DNA from: Desulfobacteraceae bacterium
Lineage (GTDB): Bacteria > Desulfobacterota > DSM-4660 > Desulfatiglandales > Desulfatiglandaceae
Length of the DNA stretch: 7,972 bases
Direction of reading: 5' to 3'
NCBI GenBank assembly: GCA_020349865.1
Contig: CP070700.1
Location: forward strand, 852,619 to 860,590
Shown here: piece after piece, positions 1,089 through 7,538 of the stretch
Position numbering within the stretch: the stretch's first letter is position 1
How the letters are laid out: each line of letters opens with the position of its first letter
Notes under the pieces: generated by a model
What the model saw: the letters and a program-made list of their open reading frames with translations, nothing else
Told to the model about the DNA's origin: nothing
The model's database searches: none
Program-made: the position numbers and the translations under genes

Positions 1089-1475
1089 CAGATGAAGATT
1101 AAGCCACGATCTCAAGATCTTGCGATTCCAGCCTTGGCCGAAATGATAGACTACTTGCCATATGCTTCACGGTAACTTGTTGAATTTAGGCATGACTTTG
1201 TTTTGTAATCTGGGATGGGGGTGAATTCCAGAATACCCAAATTAATCATCACATCAATATCGTTGAATGTCCTGCTAGATTAGAAGCTATGGTCAAGGAT
1301 TGAAAGATCAAATCTCAGCTTTCACAAGTAAGCTGCTCTTAATGTAAAATCCGCTGAGGTAATGACAATCAGGACATTCGTCTTGAAAAAGCAGGAGCTT
1401 TTTCGCAGCCCACCTAATGGTTAGGCGCTCTTTTTTGTGAAAATAGATTGCCGGTAAAGCGTTCTGTATTTTACC
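1089..1475. other. Stretch without an intact gene; remnant-like frames
   Basis: No start-to-stop gene with a ribosome site was found. On the minus strand, a frame of about 41 codons, containing YHFGQGWNRKI and ending in the hairpin near 1042, has no start codon. A 55-codon frame directly behind the lyase stop (1475-1311) contains CPDCHYLSG, also without a start. These may be decayed genes or chance open frames. Hairpins at 1385-1404 and 1413-1425 lie inside the stretch. Confidence 0.4.
1385..1404 (-). terminator. Possible terminator after the MerB-like gene
   Basis: GAAAAAGC and GCTTTTTC form a perfect 8-bp stem around a 4-base loop (TCCT on the minus strand), with A-rich and T-rich sides, 72 bases after the lyase stop codon. 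The stem has few G-C pairs, so termination may be weak. A second small hairpin at 1413-1425 is followed on the plus strand by CGCTCTTTTTT and could end plus-strand transcription. Confidence 0.35.
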
Positions 1476-2225
1476 TTACTGCTTAAATCCAAAAATCGTA
1501 CTTTGGATGGTTATGGTCACATACGTGAGCTGTTTTGGTGTAAAGTATGCACCACGTATCCTGTGAACCTTTCTGCGATATTCCTTTGCGTGTTCTTCTG
1601 ACCAGAAGAATACACTCTCTTTTCAAAATGCATTAATAATATGAGGATCTTCAAGCTTGTATAGATTTACATCCGGCACAAAAACTATGGGCTCACAACC
1701 CTTCTCCTTAACATGGTAGTTTAAGTCGCTGTTAATTTCAATGTGCATGGGCTGAGAACAGTGGGCGCATTCAGTTCTAACGACTATCGACAGAGCTTCT
1801 TTACGTAATCGCCCTTGCACGAAGGGCGTCGCAAACGCATCGACTGCTCACGCGGCGTACAACTGTTCACCAGTGCTGAAGGTGACATGATGAGGAGTTT
1901 CCTCAACGGTCACAGGATATGCCCAAACAACCGCCCCCTCACTATTTCTGAACAGGAAGGTCATGTGCTCTTCCAACTCATTGAAAACGGATGTCACCCG
2001 ATCGGTGGCCAGATCCAACTTGTTTGCGACGAATTCTGGTGATAACGGTTCGCCAACACGCGGGAGGTCTTTGACCACACAATGATGAACCATTCGGTGT
2101 TCATCGGACATGAAGTCGAGCTCGGTTTCTATTCTCTTTTTAGCTTTTAGAATTTGTTTTTCCCACAAAAATGGCGGAATGGTGAGCATGTAATGCCATA
2201 TTCCACTCATCAGCTTGTTACTCAT
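1476..2225 (-). CDS. saoL: MerB-like organomercurial/organometal lyase, selenoprotein with two selenocysteines (UGA at 1850-1848 and 1625-1623)
   Basis: Reading TGA as selenocysteine joins two apparent ORFs and a downstream tail into one 249-residue frame ending at TAA 1478-1476. The start is ATG 2225 (MSNKLM), with GAGGT six bases upstream. Residues about 50-120 match the MerB N-terminal helical region (LSPEFVANKLDL, then VTVEETPHHVTF). The first UGA gives LYAAU(126)AVD(129), matching MerB LYAWC(96)ALD(99). The second gives AFU(201)KESVFFWSEE, matching MerB SFC(159)CHVHFFAS. Both catalytic Cys are thus Sec, and the catalytic Asp is kept. C153 and C156 add a CxxC. MerB, of about 212 residues, cleaves carbon-mercury bonds by protonolysis in the cytoplasm; the substrate here is unknown. 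Each UGA is followed by a SECIS-like hairpin. I recall the name SaoL for MerB-like selenoproteins; the assignment is by memory. No mercury-resistance or transporter genes adjoin it. Confidence 0.88.
1590..1615 (-). promoter_or_regulatory. Bacterial SECIS element for the second UGA
   Basis: After the UGA at 1625-1623, TTCTTCT and AGAAGAA (between 1610 and 1593) form a perfect 7-bp stem with the tetraloop GGUC. A lower GUG/CAC pairing (1615-1613 with 1592-1590) extends it. The loop begins 19 bases after the UGA and has G and GU at its start. This fits the known bacterial SECIS rule: a hairpin with its loop about 16-37 bases downstream and a G in the first two loop positions. Confidence 0.78.
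1810..1828 (-). promoter_or_regulatory. Bacterial SECIS element for the first UGA
   Basis: After the UGA at 1850-1848, CGCCCTT and AAGGGCG form a perfect 7-bp stem around the loop CGUGC. The loop begins 26 bases downstream of the UGA and has G at its second position. Both distance and loop fit the bacterial SECIS pattern that recruits SelB. Confidence 0.75.
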
Positions 2226-2265
2226 AGGCGTACCTCTATCCAGTTTAAAATTAGGACATTCGAAA

Positions 2266-2460
2266 CTATAGAAAATTAGCGGCATTAACGATTCTGGAGA
2301 TCTTGTCCTCTTTCAATCCATCGAGATCTTCTTTCTTTATCCATCCTTCACTCATCAAACGTGCAAAAACGAGAATAAATCTTGAACATCTGCCTGCGTT
2401 CTATTCCCCGTATAATCAAGTGATGCAGTGCAGACGCCACATCCGGTCTGGTTGATCATG
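2266..2460 (-). pseudogene. Disrupted or frameshifted gene fragment upstream of the MerB-like gene
   Basis: Two adjoining minus-strand frames look protein-like. From ATG 2459 one encodes MINQTGCGVCTASLDYTG and continues to QDLFSF before a TGA. The other takes over at the T5 run (about 2362-2366) with ARLMSEGWIKKEDLDGLK and ends at TAG 2268-2266, 40 bases before the lyase start. One extra T in the run would join them in a single frame. No Shine-Dalgarno precedes the ATG. Further upstream the same frame continues through TGA and TAG codons. A decayed gene, a sequencing error in a homopolymer, or a programmed -1 shift are all possible. The product is not recognised, though the GCGVCT motif suggests a redox or metal-binding pair of cysteines. 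Confidence 0.35.
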
Positions 2461-2830: not shown

Positions 2831-3682
2831 ATGATCACGCCTGAAGAAGAGAGATATATACGGGCCCATGCCTATGTGCCGGAGCACAGCGTCGGATTGA
2901 TGACATGCGTGTCAGGCGGCGAACCTTATCTCGTAGACGGCTATTTCTGCTGCCGCAGAAAAGATTGGCTTATAGTTGTCGGCTACCCATTGGAAAAGGA
3001 TTTCGTCTTGAGCGAATTTGAGGTGTTCATTGATAACATTAAAAAAAAATACCGACCCGAATACCTTTCGCTCATAGCGCCGGAATTGTCCCCTTCAATT
3101 ATTGAAAACTGCCGGGAGAGAGAAAGCGACCATTATTACATCCTGGATCTTCAGAGCGTGGTCCTAAAAACCAGCCTGAGAAGAACTGTTGCCAAGGCGC
3201 AAAGCCGCCTGATCGTCGAACGGTCTTCTGAAATCCTTGGGCAACACAAGGCGCTGATGAAAGAGTTCGTCGAAAACGTCGACCCACCGTCCCGCGTTAA
3301 AACACTTTTGTTCAAGACACCGGAATATTTTGACAATGACGGAAACGCCATGGTCTTGAACGCGTGGGACCAAGAAGAAAATCTGTCAGCGTTTTACATC
3401 GTGGATCTTGAGCCGGAAGACTTTTCCACTTATGTTATAGGATGCCATTCAAAAAAAGATTATGTTCCTGGTGCCTCGGATCTTCTGCTTTTTGAAACCG
3501 TCCGCTTGAGCGAGGAGCGTGGAAAAAAGTATGTACATCTCGGTCTCGGCGTAAATGAAGGAATCCGGCGATTCAAAATGAAATGGGGATCACAACCCAC
3601 CCTAAAATATGAAATGTGCGAACTTGTCCTGAAAAAGCCTTCCATCCGTGACACCATCCTGGCTTTACAAAGGTCTCGATGA
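2831..3682 (+). CDS. Acyltransferase with GNAT/FemAB-like C-terminal half
   Basis: A 283-residue soluble protein without signal peptide or membrane segment. The N-terminal half (1-110) is not assigned. Residues about 112-130 (LRRTVAKAQSR) resemble the basic helix that joins two halves in FemAB/DUF2156-like acyltransferases. Residues 171-255 look like a GNAT core: the strands AFYIVDL and FSTYVIGC, the helix GASDLLLFETVRLSEERG, then YVHLGLGVNEGIRRFKMKWG, the typical ending of such folds. Such enzymes transfer acyl or aminoacyl groups; donor and acceptor are unknown. ATG 2831 is the first possible start, since a TAA lies two codons upstream, but it has almost no Shine-Dalgarno. Its TGA stop overlaps the next gene's ATG (ATGA), so the two are probably translationally coupled. 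Confidence 0.72.
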   Translation: MITPEEERYIRAHAYVPEHSVGLMTCVSGGEPYLVDGYFCCRRKDWLIVVGYPLEKDFVLSEFEVFIDNIKKKYRPEYLSLIAPELSPSIIENCRERESDHYYILDLQSVVLKTSLRRTVAKAQSRLIVERSSEILGQHKALMKEFVENVDPPSRVKTLLFKTPEYFDNDGNAMVLNAWDQEENLSAFYIVDLEPEDFSTYVIGCHSKKDYVPGASDLLLFETVRLSEERGKKYVHLGLGVNEGIRRFKMKWGSQPTLKYEMCELVLKKPSIRDTILALQRSR

Positions 3683-4530
3683 AGTGGTTGCGAAAAAGAA
3701 AGACAGATTTTTTCACGAAAATGAAAGAAAAAGAATTGAAAATGATTCGGGAGGTAAGGAAAAACGACAAAGCGTCATTCCTTGTTGGAACGGCCCATTT
3801 CTTTCCATATAGTTTCAGGTCTTCGCTCATTCGCTACATTAAGAACGCCCGTACAGTGATATTTGAAGGGCCGCTCGATCAAGAAAATATGGACAGGGTC
3901 GTGAGGGCGGGAGTCGCTGAAGCGAAGGCCCCGCACATTTTCGATGCGCTGGACCGGCAAACCACGGCCCGTATTGTCAGAGCACTCGTTCTGCCGGGTT
4001 CGATAAGGATTCCGTCCTTTTTCTACCTCCTATCCACCAACACAGAAAAAACCGTATACGACATGGTAAAGGGAATGAAACCCTGGATGGCTTTTTTCAC
4101 GATCTGGTCGAGCTTCCTTGAGAAAAGAGGGTGGAGAAATTCAGTTGATCTGGAAGCGTATCGCATCGCCGGAGAGCTGGATAGAAATATCGTCTTTCTG
4201 GAAACAATTGAAGAACAGATAAAAGTACTTGAAAATCTCTCGTATGAAAAGATCATCGGTTTTTTAAAACGAATCGACCAATGGAATGATTACGCGCATT
4301 CATACATGAAATACTACTTAAACGGCGACTTGGAAAAGATCATATCCATGGGCACCCGTATTCCCAGCCGCAATTATCAAGCGATTGACCGGCGGGATAA
4401 AATATTCTTCGAAAGAATGATCAATTATTTTGAAGAGGGAAACGCCATAGCGTTTGTGGGTGCGCCGCATGTCGTAGGAATAAGCGAGATGTTTCGCGAA
4501 CGAGGATATGAAATGGCGAAAATAAAATGA
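3679..4530 (+). CDS. TraB/GumN (TIKI-like) family protein
   Basis: A 283-residue protein. Family hallmarks are visible: a first GxxH motif, GTAH (residues 37-40), followed by FFP; a conserved Glu in VIFEGPLD (63); SVDLEAYRIA (155-164) and IVFLETIEEQIKVL (171-184), matching the central VDxE and FLET segments; and a second GxxH motif, GAPH (261-264), in FVGAPHVVG near the C-terminus. In animal TIKI proteins of this superfamily the two GxxH motifs form a metal-dependent protease site; activity in bacterial members is largely unproven. A TraB-type membrane tail is absent, and no signal peptide is visible. The ATG overlaps the stop of the acyltransferase gene by ATGA, so expression depends on it. 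A start at codon 15 (MKEKEL) is possible but less likely given the overlap. Confidence 0.8.
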   Translation: MKWLRKRKTDFFTKMKEKELKMIREVRKNDKASFLVGTAHFFPYSFRSSLIRYIKNARTVIFEGPLDQENMDRVVRAGVAEAKAPHIFDALDRQTTARIVRALVLPGSIRIPSFFYLLSTNTEKTVYDMVKGMKPWMAFFTIWSSFLEKRGWRNSVDLEAYRIAGELDRNIVFLETIEEQIKVLENLSYEKIIGFLKRIDQWNDYAHSYMKYYLNGDLEKIISMGTRIPSRNYQAIDRRDKIFFERMINYFEEGNAIAFVGAPHVVGISEMFRERGYEMAKIK

Positions 4531-4632: not shown

Positions 4633-6390
4633 TCACCGCTCGGACTTGACATATAGCCTGTCCGTGCCGAAAGGGGATCTCTCGTGAGATCGAGATTGAG
4701 GTTGTTCTTTTACGATAGCCTTTAGTTTCCTCAATATCACTTCGACTTTGAGCGATACCTTGTCGTCGAACGGCGATTCTTCAAGTGCTAAGGCTAATGC
4801 CCTTTTTAGCTTCAGGAGCCTGTATATGTCTTCAGGCGGATACCCTTCTCCTCGCAAAAGCCTAAATGTTTCCCATACGCTGACTTGTGGCTCATGGAAT
4901 CCATGCTCAATTCTTCTCACCATCTCAACCATTAACTCAGAAGCTTCGGCAGAGTCCATGGTGTTGTGCTTCCAAGCCATGCCCAGACCTGTCAATCCGA
5001 ATTTGACTTTGTCATCATCGACCAGCATGTCTTTTGAATAATAGAACAAATTAGGTTGAAAAAAAGGGAGCCTGCTCGAGTTAACCAGATCAACTGTCTC
5101 AGAAAAGGTTTCCCGGGTTTCTCCCGGATACCCCAGAATAAATCCCCCCTCACCGTATATTCCATGTTCATTTAATCGTCTAATAGCATCAATGACCGTA
5201 TCGCGCTTGAGTCTTTTGTCCATATTGTCCAGAATCTTTTGACTTCCCGATTCGATACCCATATTCACGAATTCACATCCTGCTATTTTCATCAACTTCA
5301 CCAACTCAGCCGTCAGCGAGCTCGCTCTTGCATAGGTAGACCAGGTAAAGTCAAATCCCTCTTCAATCATCATTTGCAAGACCGATTTGAGTCTTCTCTT
5401 GTTCCCGGTGAAATTGTCATCGGTAAAGCGAATGTGTTTTACGAATCCCAAACCCTGGATTTTGAGAAGTTCGTCGCGGATAACATCCAATGACTTATAG
5501 TGAACCTGTGGACACAGACGCCAGCAGGTGCAAAAACGACATCGGTATGAACAGCCCCTGCTTGTCGTGACGGGCAGCGTCTTCCTTAAGTACTCTCGGG
5601 GAATCCTGTCCCAGGCCATGATGGTCTGGTTTATGTCCATGTTTTCCTGCTCACGATGCGTGAAAACTATCTTCCCCTCCTCGCTAAAAAAAGCCAGGTT
5701 TGGTGTCTTTTCTAAACCATCTCCGCGTTTCAGAGCATCAAGGGCCCTCACGAGAGTCTGCTCTCCCTGAAACTCAATAACAAATATATCGACCTTCCCG
5801 TGAAAGGTGGAAAGCCAGCTAAGAGTCTCAGGATAAAGGTCGGCCCCACCTTCCAGAACTTTCTTAACCAGCATGCCGCCGGCAATAACAGGCACACTCG
5901 GCTCATATTTCTTGATCTGCGCAGCCATTTCTGCAATTTCATCCAGGTAGATGAAATTAGAGGAGATGCAGACTGCAAGAGGCCTGTCCTCTAAGATATC
6001 GGGCAAATTGGCGAGTGAGTAATTTTGTATAACGAACGGATCATAGCCTCGTGTCTTCAGGTAATGATAGAGGTATATGCCATTCAACGTAATCATTTCA
6101 GAGTGAGTCAAATATTTGTCCGCATTGTATGGCGTAATATCGGGCAGTTTTCGATTGTTTTTCACATAATTCATCAGATCCAGGAGTCCCATGTATCTAC
6201 CATTCATGGATAATTGAAGTTTCGAAATATTATTGTTCACGGCCTCCTGGATGGCCGGGAGAGCGATATCTTCGAAACGGCCAGCATGCCTTATAGCTCG
6301 CTGCATCAAATTGTTCAGCCTTTTCCTGAAGTGAACATCATAGTTCAACGGATAATCCGTCGCAATTATGGCAACTTTTGAGTTTCGCAT
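4633..6390 (-). CDS. B12-binding-type radical SAM enzyme
   Basis: A 585-residue protein. Residues about 95-225 resemble a cobalamin-binding Rossmann-like domain (YLYHYLKTRGYDPFVI, PLAVCISSNFIY, VPVIAGGMLVKK, then DIFVIEFQGEQTL), but the classical DxHxxG cobalt-ligand motif is not apparent. The radical SAM core starts near 272 with TTSRGCSYRCRFC. C280, C284 and C287 form the CxxxCxxC that binds the SAM-cleaving 4Fe-4S cluster; C289 and C293 lie close by. FTDDNF (322-327), MGIESGSQKIL (377-387) and FILGYPGET (417-425) are typical later strands. The C-terminal 130 residues are unassigned. The order B12 domain then radical SAM fits class B-type methylases or ring-forming enzymes; the substrate is unknown. 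ATG 6390 is bounded by an upstream TAA. Its AGGAGG is 13 bases away, longer than usual. No operon partner is present. Confidence 0.88.
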   Translation of the reverse strand: MRNSKVAIIATDYPLNYDVHFRKRLNNLMQRAIRHAGRFEDIALPAIQEAVNNNISKLQLSMNGRYMGLLDLMNYVKNNRKLPDITPYNADKYLTHSEMITLNGIYLYHYLKTRGYDPFVIQNYSLANLPDILEDRPLAVCISSNFIYLDEIAEMAAQIKKYEPSVPVIAGGMLVKKVLEGGADLYPETLSWLSTFHGKVDIFVIEFQGEQTLVRALDALKRGDGLEKTPNLAFFSEEGKIVFTHREQENMDINQTIMAWDRIPREYLRKTLPVTTSRGCSYRCRFCTCWRLCPQVHYKSLDVIRDELLKIQGLGFVKHIRFTDDNFTGNKRRLKSVLQMMIEEGFDFTWSTYARASSLTAELVKLMKIAGCEFVNMGIESGSQKILDNMDKRLKRDTVIDAIRRLNEHGIYGEGGFILGYPGETRETFSETVDLVNSSRLPFFQPNLFYYSKDMLVDDDKVKFGLTGLGMAWKHNTMDSAEASELMVEMVRRIEHGFHEPQVSVWETFRLLRGEGYPPEDIYRLLKLKRALALALEESPFDDKVSLKVEVILRKLKAIVKEQPQSRSHERSPFGTDRLYVKSER

Positions 6391-7082: not shown

Positions 7083-7538
7083 TCAGACATATCTGGGACA
7101 GGTTCGGGTCTTTTCATAAAAATCTTCCAGACCTGTTTTTTTGATTTTCTCGTTGATCAGTACCCAGCTTTTATACAGATATTTATCAAAATTGGTTCTG
7201 TTACAGGGAAATTCGTCACACTGGTAGCAAAAATCAATCTGTTTTTCCTGATGGCAGCCGCGCACCCCACAGTCTTTAAACATCTTGCACTGCTCGTTAC
7301 GGCATCCCTTGCAATTCTCTGAAGCAAAGTAATCCAGCATTTCCTTGAAATCAGGGTATTTTTGAAAAACCGGATCACCCAGCAGGGTTTCAAACCGTTT
7401 GGCATACATGTCGAAATTCCCCAGCTTTTCCTTGAGTTTTAAACTGTACCTGCGGATATCTCCATCCACATGGGCAAAGCATTTTTCACAACTCAGACCG
7501 CAGGGGGCCAATGATGCCTTAATTTCACCATTTGTCAT
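7083..7538 (-). CDS. DUF3795 Cys-rich (putative metal-binding) protein
   Basis: A 151-residue soluble protein with 12 cysteines, about the usual length for the DUF3795 family. The N-terminal signature APCGLSCEKC gives C13, C17 and C20. A second cluster gives C76, C79, C84, C90, C95, C104, C107 and C112 (ENCKGCRNEQC, then DFCYQCDEFPC), and C147 is near the end. The spacing suggests zinc or Fe-S binding. The family is common in anaerobic bacteria and archaea and has no established function. ATG 7538 has AGGAG seven bases upstream and a perfect TATAAT (7576-7571) for its promoter. The TGA stop follows PRYV, a normal family ending as I recall it, so I treat it as a true stop. It is divergent from the GlxA-type regulator gene. 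Confidence 0.85.
   Translation of the reverse strand: MTNGEIKASLAPCGLSCEKCFAHVDGDIRRYSLKLKEKLGNFDMYAKRFETLLGDPVFQKYPDFKEMLDYFASENCKGCRNEQCKMFKDCGVRGCHQEKQIDFCYQCDEFPCNRTNFDKYLYKSWVLINEKIKKTGLEDFYEKTRTCPRYV

Follow-up and report, generated by a model that had tools for sequence, protein, structure and literature searches.

Does a reading frame that carries UGA at the places of two catalytic cysteines encode an enzyme with two selenocysteines (Sec), and what would such an enzyme do? The question is raised by a stretch of 7,972 nucleotides of contig CP070700.1 from a Desulfobacteraceae bacterium (the whole stretch is called the window). An original prediction, made from the letters alone, had proposed that 1476..2225 encodes a relative of the organomercurial lyase MerB with both catalytic cysteines replaced by UGA. 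The coordinates held, and the strand is minus; the plus strand there has other stops and yields no such protein. Reading from 2225 to 1476 with TGA as Sec (U) gave 249 residues, confirmed that the two internal stops are both TGA, and recovered both predicted contexts, LYAAU-AVD (with D129) and AFU-KESVFF (Table 1). The start at ATG 2225 is favoured because AGAGG stands 7 nt before it; an in-frame ATG at 2285, which would add 20 residues, is possible but less likely. The gene is solitary in the window, with the nearest called genes 478 and 606 bp away. We consider it probable that the product is a MerB-fold carbon-metal lyase in which UGA126 and UGA201 are both read as Sec, each directed by its own downstream hairpin. 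What we take as established from sequence is the UGA pair at the cysteine columns, the retained aspartate, both hairpins and the fold prediction.

Table 1. Features of the double-Sec MerB-family gene and their positions in the window.
Feature	Position	Strand	Evidence
Double-Sec MerB-family gene, 249 residues	1476..2225	minus	TGA=U translation, PF03243 match, 80 related loci; stop TAA 1478-1476
Probable ribosome binding site AGAGG, 7 nt upstream of ATG 2225	2233..2237	minus	sequence
UGA codon 126, probable Sec, column of MerB Cys96	1848..1850	minus	translation, 80 loci, MerB alignment
Asp129 codon, column of MerB Asp99	1839..1841	minus	invariant in 77 aligned proteins; aligned to D99
Hairpin 1 (SECIS-like), CGCCCUUCGUGCAAGGGCG, codons 133-139	1810..1828	minus	frozen codons, pairing across family
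C153-A-H-C156 motif, C153 at column of MerB Cys117	1758..1769	minus	family and MerB alignments
UGA codon 201, probable Sec, column of MerB Cys159	1623..1625	minus	translation, 80 loci, MerB alignment
Hairpin 2 (SECIS-like), UUCUUCU-GGUC-AGAAGAA, codons 206-211	1593..1610	minus	pairing, frozen codons, folding z

The family profile was aligned to a MerB chain from the Protein Data Bank (PDB). Because this solved structure carries the C160S mutation, the register is fixed; the MerB residue numbering follows it and PMC8261052 (in excerpt). U126 fell on C96, D129 on D99, C153 on C117 and U201 on C159, which bears out the replacement of both catalytic cysteines by UGA with the aspartate retained. 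C153 and C156 are each present in at least 90% of the rows of the family protein alignment. Relatives were collected by a contig scan of one genome per species with six peptide patterns that covered neither TGA, and 80 of 95 were kept. These loci come mainly from Deltaproteobacteria/Desulfobacterales, Chloroflexi and Acidobacteria, with single Nitrospirae, Rokubacteria, Binatia, KSB1 and other members. TGA stands at both columns in 78 of the 80 loci, the aligned stretches have no further stops, and D129 is retained in all 80. The two remaining loci, L065 and L077, have TGC at the first column and TGA at the second; neither TAA nor TAG occurs at either column among the 80. The protein alignment of 77 rows comprises the window and 76 loci; L025, L029, L059 and L074 were left out, and L074 was matched in two pieces, probably through a frameshift.

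Two TGAs in one frame could in principle also arise by nonsense mutation, through reassignment of the UGA codon or as an artefact of assembly. This explanation draws on the TGAs themselves and on the labelling of all 80 loci as metagenome-assembled genomes, and we give it a negligible probability. The identical TGA pair in 78 of 80 assemblies, the lack of TAA and TAG at the columns, the frozen hairpin codons described below, and the selA and selB genes of relatives, which read without internal stops, all stand against it. The two-TGA pattern is far beyond chance, and together with the constant D129 it upholds the earlier argument against random nonsense mutation. Random nonsense, a changed code and assembly error were rejected for the family on the TGA conservation and the frozen hairpin codons. 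A whole clade, rather than this one genome, carries Sec at both sites as a rule.

Downstream of each UGA lies a hairpin resembling a Sec insertion sequence (SECIS). We scored conserved residues that keep a single codon beyond the genes' own usage, in 77 genes with a third-position GC of 0.33 to 0.93 and 80 testable columns. The most constrained columns were V136 (GTG in 76/77), G138 (GGG in 75/76) and E210 (GAA in 77/77), and the rest of the top six were S209 (TCA in 73/77), E211 (GAA in 71/77) and P134 (CCC in 76/76). All six are inside the hairpins, 8-12 codons past UGA126 and 5-10 past UGA201, and the codons flanking the hairpins (140, 141, 204, 212 and 213) are unconstrained. Neither hairpin includes the columns ranked seventh and eighth, S166 and D165, and some codon constraint is also seen at D129 and A132, which fall between UGA126 and hairpin 1. 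Pairing follows the same pattern. In hairpin 1 the inner five pairs are standard in 75/75 sequences and the outer one in 66/75, and in hairpin 2 all seven pairs are standard in 77/77. The GGUC loop of hairpin 2 begins 22 nt past the U of UGA, compared with 21 for the GGUC loop of Escherichia coli fdhF.

The folding signals differ between the two sites. The 48-nt stretch of hairpin 2 in the window has a z of -3.05 against shuffles, and along the gene the seven lowest of the 249 mean folding z values are those of residues 198-204. At site 126 the mean dinucleotide z ranks 22 of 249. A codon-swap folding test put site 126 at rank 25, with the top places elsewhere in the gene, and site 201 at rank 180 of 236, where the codons hardly vary and the test is hence uninformative. 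The case for hairpin 1 rests on the family codon conservation. Individual loci vary in hairpin 1: L077, which lost UGA126, has it broken and altered at three codons, L065, which also lost UGA126, retains it, and L078 carries a compensated base pair. In a second double-Sec clade, described below, the hairpin 2 consensus of 31 sequences is CUCUUCC-GGUC-GGAAGAG, with the same loop and swapped pairs. The gene thus shows the marks by which bacterial selenoproteins are recognized, an in-frame UGA aligned with Cys of relatives and a conserved hairpin downstream of each UGA.

We searched for the Sec machinery in the genomes of 34 of the 80 loci (19 for selB) and in 14 control genomes. selA was over cut-off in 31/34 relatives' genomes versus 1/14 controls, and selB was found in 15/19 versus 2/14; both genes are full-length in the relatives. 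tRNA-Sec scored at least 61 bits in 30/34. The Rfam cut-off for it was reached by 31/34, one of them at 47.2 bits and perhaps another tRNA, and by 5/14 controls. One relative's genome (G020) lacks selA and also a convincing tRNA-Sec.

Which member of the MerB family is this protein? It matches Pfam MerB PF03243 with 57.3 bits (gathering threshold 27), and a MerB fold is predicted for it. The narrower NCBIfam models gave 52.9 and 48.0 bits for canonical MerB (NF009710, cut-off 193, and NF033555, cut-off 200) and 49.5 for SaoL (NF040728; cut-off 140). Among the canonical MerB residues, Asp99 and Cys117 are matched by D129 and C153, whereas Cys96 and Cys159 are both UGA. MerB itself (NF009710; PDB 3f0o, 3f2g) has Cys at both ligand columns, and about 20 N-terminal residues of the window protein are outside MerB coverage. 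MerB2 (PDB 5c17) also has Cys at both ligand columns and differs further by Ser at the Asp99 column. SaoL resembles the window protein in its MerB family membership, the kept Asp and Sec at the Cys159 column, but has Cys at C96, Cys-Sec at 158-159 and a single Sec (PMC13188914, in excerpt). Our positive control, L085, has this SaoL arrangement and scored 175 bits, over the SaoL cut-off. The original prediction had mentioned the MerB-like selenoproteins named SaoL, of the SAO system; the window protein differs from them in score, motif and tree. We rejected SaoL identity for the window protein, which is below the cut-off, has U at C96 and FU at 158-159, and falls in a separate clade. No Sao model matched any of the five other window proteins scanned, and no NCBIfam model reached its cut-off for L001, L077 and L078 of the window's clade or for L107 of the second clade.

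A 2026 review of 119 selenoprotein families has one MerB-like entry, SaoL, with motif CU and one Sec (PMC13188914), and in a 2022 review an alkylmercury lyase MerB-like selenoprotein appears with the accession of that SaoL entry (PMC9312934). MerB2 is named among predicted selenoproteins, without detail (PMC7435645). Neither mercury nor lyase occurs in the excerpts of the deep-Sep paper (PMC12013277), and neither MerB nor mercury in the main text of PMC5029168. A selenoprotein with Sec for both active-site cysteines is known in ferredoxin-thioredoxin reductase, an unrelated redox enzyme, where one of the two selenoprotein sequences surveyed has both (PMC2398784, in excerpt). A double-Sec MerB was not found in this literature, whose scope excluded Haft and Gwadz 2023, Haft and Tolstoy 2025 and supplements. 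So far as we found, the window protein is a member of a conserved, apparently unnamed double-Sec branch of the MerB superfamily, and an earlier record is possible.

The wider family was surveyed with PF03243 in 395 Desulfobacterota, 400 Chloroflexota and 297 Acidobacteriota genomes. This gave 155 matches (60, 72 and 23), of which 144 were aligned; L139, L198 and L200 were too short, and eight fragments or weak matches, including L226, L229 and L230, were also left out. Written as the C96, D99 and C159 columns, the Desulfobacterota proteins (n=59) are UEU in 27, CEC in 12, UDU in 9, CDU in 4 and CDC in 3, with four single others. Chloroflexota (n=65) have CDC 39, CDU 16, UDU 5 and UEU 3, with two single others, and Acidobacteriota (n=20) have CDU 10, UDU 4, CDC 2 and CVC 2, again with two single others. 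Sec is at the C159 column in 80/144 and at the C96 column in 49/144. Of the latter, 48 also have Sec at C159, the exception being L137 with an unreadable second half; no clear case of Sec at C96 alone was therefore seen. The counts for the window's clade are lower bounds, as PF03243 under-detects it: among the 34 known carrier genomes, G020 and G024 gave no match, G031 was below cut-off and G014 matched through another copy only.

A tree of 156 rows and 122 columns was built after leaving out L137, L097, L182 and L172 and adding 15 loci of the window's clade. The window falls in a clade of 33 rows (31 UDU, 2 CDU) with an SH-aLRT support of 100. A UEU clade of 32 rows (30 UEU, one UDU and one CEU; support 92) groups with 11 CEC/CEU rows (96), apart from the window's clade. 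By parsimony there are five changes at C96 and nine at C159; with 122 columns the deep order is uncertain, and gain and loss of Sec are indistinguishable. The UEU clade, seen in L107:1294-1989 (+) and 26 other Desulfobacterota rows, has the motifs KWFGQUxFES...YAUSTMNLFRSEEH and Glu at the Asp99 column; UEU rows number 27 in the Desulfobacterota survey against 9 for the under-detected window's clade. A Chloroflexota/Acidobacteriota branch of CDU rows, such as L160:1384-2061 (-), is separate from SaoL. Its C96 column is Cys, its Sec at C159 mostly follows a Thr (Thr-Sec), and L160 is below all NCBIfam cut-offs. The C159 column of L119:289-972 (+), which lies in an otherwise Cys/Glu/Cys branch, holds TGA where the closely related L096 has Cys; a switch to Sec may have occurred there recently.

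MerB holds a single mercury ion with both cysteines and uses the aspartate in catalysis. By analogy, the selenolates of Sec126 and Sec201, in place of Cys96 and Cys159, would bind a soft organometal cation, methylmercury for instance. A proton from Asp129 would then release the hydrocarbon. The metal ion would stay on the diselenolate site until a cellular thiol takes it over, and the conserved C153xxC156 may serve as a relay in this. We infer Sec insertion in the source organism, the lyase chemistry, the substrate and this hand-off from the features described above. Release of the metal is a puzzle, given that Hg-Se bonds are strong and that MerA, the usual partner, passes its cut-off in just one of the 34 relatives' genomes.

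An alternative that we regard as unlikely, though the most serious outside lyase chemistry, is a double-selenol binder of metal or metalloid, in which the MerB fold captures or passes on a soft metal and no bond is broken. A diselenolate site should have a very high affinity for Hg(II), a conserved CxxC is beside it, and MerA, the taker of the product, was not over cut-off in 33/34 genomes. The second double-Sec clade also fits a binder, with 31 Glu and 1 Asp at the Asp99 column in its 32 tree rows, taking rows with Sec and with Cys at C96 together. Against it, Asp129 is kept in 80/80 loci and would be needless for a mere binder, and 99Ser variants of MerB-like proteins are reported to differ in metal affinity (PMC8261052, in excerpt). 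A redox role is less probable still. Two facing selenols could pair, and the protein would be a thiol- or selenol-dependent reductase on a MerB fold that makes and breaks a Sec126-Sec201 diselenide; a redox function is assumed for most prokaryotic selenoproteins (PMC9312934, in excerpt). Yet no redox motif such as UxxC is present at either site, and the Asp is invariant; in MerB Cys96, Asp99 and Cys159 are described as essential (PMC8261052).

The gene neighbourhoods offer few clues. No conserved operon was found among 74 loci, where a co-directional neighbour within 100 bp lies upstream in 38 and downstream in 26, and no mer genes are among the window proteins scanned. A MerR-type regulator adjoins the gene start in 7/80 loci, a MarR-type regulator is 51-445 bp upstream in 6/80, and a 4HBT-type thioesterase adjoins the gene in 4. 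Part of our confidence in a lyase, clearly the smaller part, goes to a substrate other than an organomercurial, for example an organoarsenic, organotin or organoselenium compound of anoxic sediments. The 13 loci whose upstream regulators have no conserved cysteine set, the adjacent thioesterases, and the fact that MerB binds organotin and organolead all count for such a substrate. There is no pointer to one such compound, and soft mercury would suit a selenol.

Several results weigh against the double-Sec lyase that we prefer. The protein is far below the NF009710 and NF040728 cut-offs given above, and the excerpted literature yielded no assayed enzyme of the window's clade. The window's own stretch at site 1, containing hairpin 1, has a z of -0.05 and is no stabler than shuffles; no Rfam SECIS match was found in window positions 1400-2400, where the four sub-threshold matches are none of them SECIS. 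The Sec machinery was found in relatives' genomes, the ones searched for it, and is weak, permissive evidence because selA is over cut-off in 146/160 genomes of the phylum at large (75/80 and 71/80). MerA is over cut-off in the genome of L065 alone among the 34, and L065 has Cys at the first site. The MerR-type regulators share one Cys in 6/7 and have no conserved set, and the MarR-type regulators lack Cys altogether. Two of 120 listed protein records break the rule at the two sites, P0028 with Ser/Cys and P0019 with Gly/Leu; both are protein records only.

As a check for a link with mercury methylation we searched for HgcA, which is over cut-off in 13/34 relatives' genomes. Among the 395 Desulfobacterota genomes, it was found in 20/30 with a double-Sec protein versus 94/365 others (Fisher p 8.6e-6); two of the 30 (G405, G417) show the first UGA only, and G006, the carrier of L008 with HgcA, was missed by the PF03243 search and counted among the others. 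The contrast is gone in the 160 size-listed genomes, with 0/2 versus 11/85 below 3 Mb, 0/1 versus 16/42 at 3-4 Mb and 3/5 versus 13/25 at 4 Mb or more. HgcA is in 1/11 genomes with Cys/Glu-type copies only. We make no claim of a link to HgcA because genome size and kinship are uncontrolled.

Some neighbouring observations are recorded here. MerA-like flavoprotein matches below cut-off at G003:C99:72361-73749 and G013:C120:4391-5722 have one internal TGA each and are possible further selenoproteins. Elsewhere in the window, 4633-6390 (-) encodes a B12-type radical SAM protein that most resembles the PhpK-family P-methyltransferases (312 bits against a cut-off of 600), and 7083-7538 (-) a cysteine-rich DUF3795 protein. 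A 283-residue protein without a Pfam or NCBIfam match (2831-3682 (+)) overlaps a TraB/PrgY/gumN-family protein at 3679-4530 (+).

Protein databases show these genes in altered form. Among the 120 protein relatives listed, of 133, 78 end exactly at residue 125, just before the first UGA, and 4 more stop short of 126 in other ways. Trp is written at both sites in 30 and at the first site in 1, and in 5 the first site is Cys and the second is empty. Since most records are cut at the first UGA or show Trp, merB surveys by annotated protein would miss or misread these proteins.

A broader proposal, which we hold tentatively, is that diselenolate MerB-type enzymes are a main organometal-cleaving system of anaerobic Desulfobacterota, and also occur in Chloroflexota and Acidobacteriota. 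They would form two clades (Asp and Glu), work independently of MerA, and have been missed through gene calls cut at the first UGA. A conserved family with a two-Sec metal site is unusual because most selenoprotein families have a single Sec (PMC13188914, in excerpt). The clade offers a direct test of what selenium contributes to a known metal-cleaving mechanism. If the lyase reading is true, these proteins are candidates for methylmercury demethylation in anoxic sediments without classical merB, and they may bear on possible methylmercury removers in anoxic mud that lacks the merB/merA pair.
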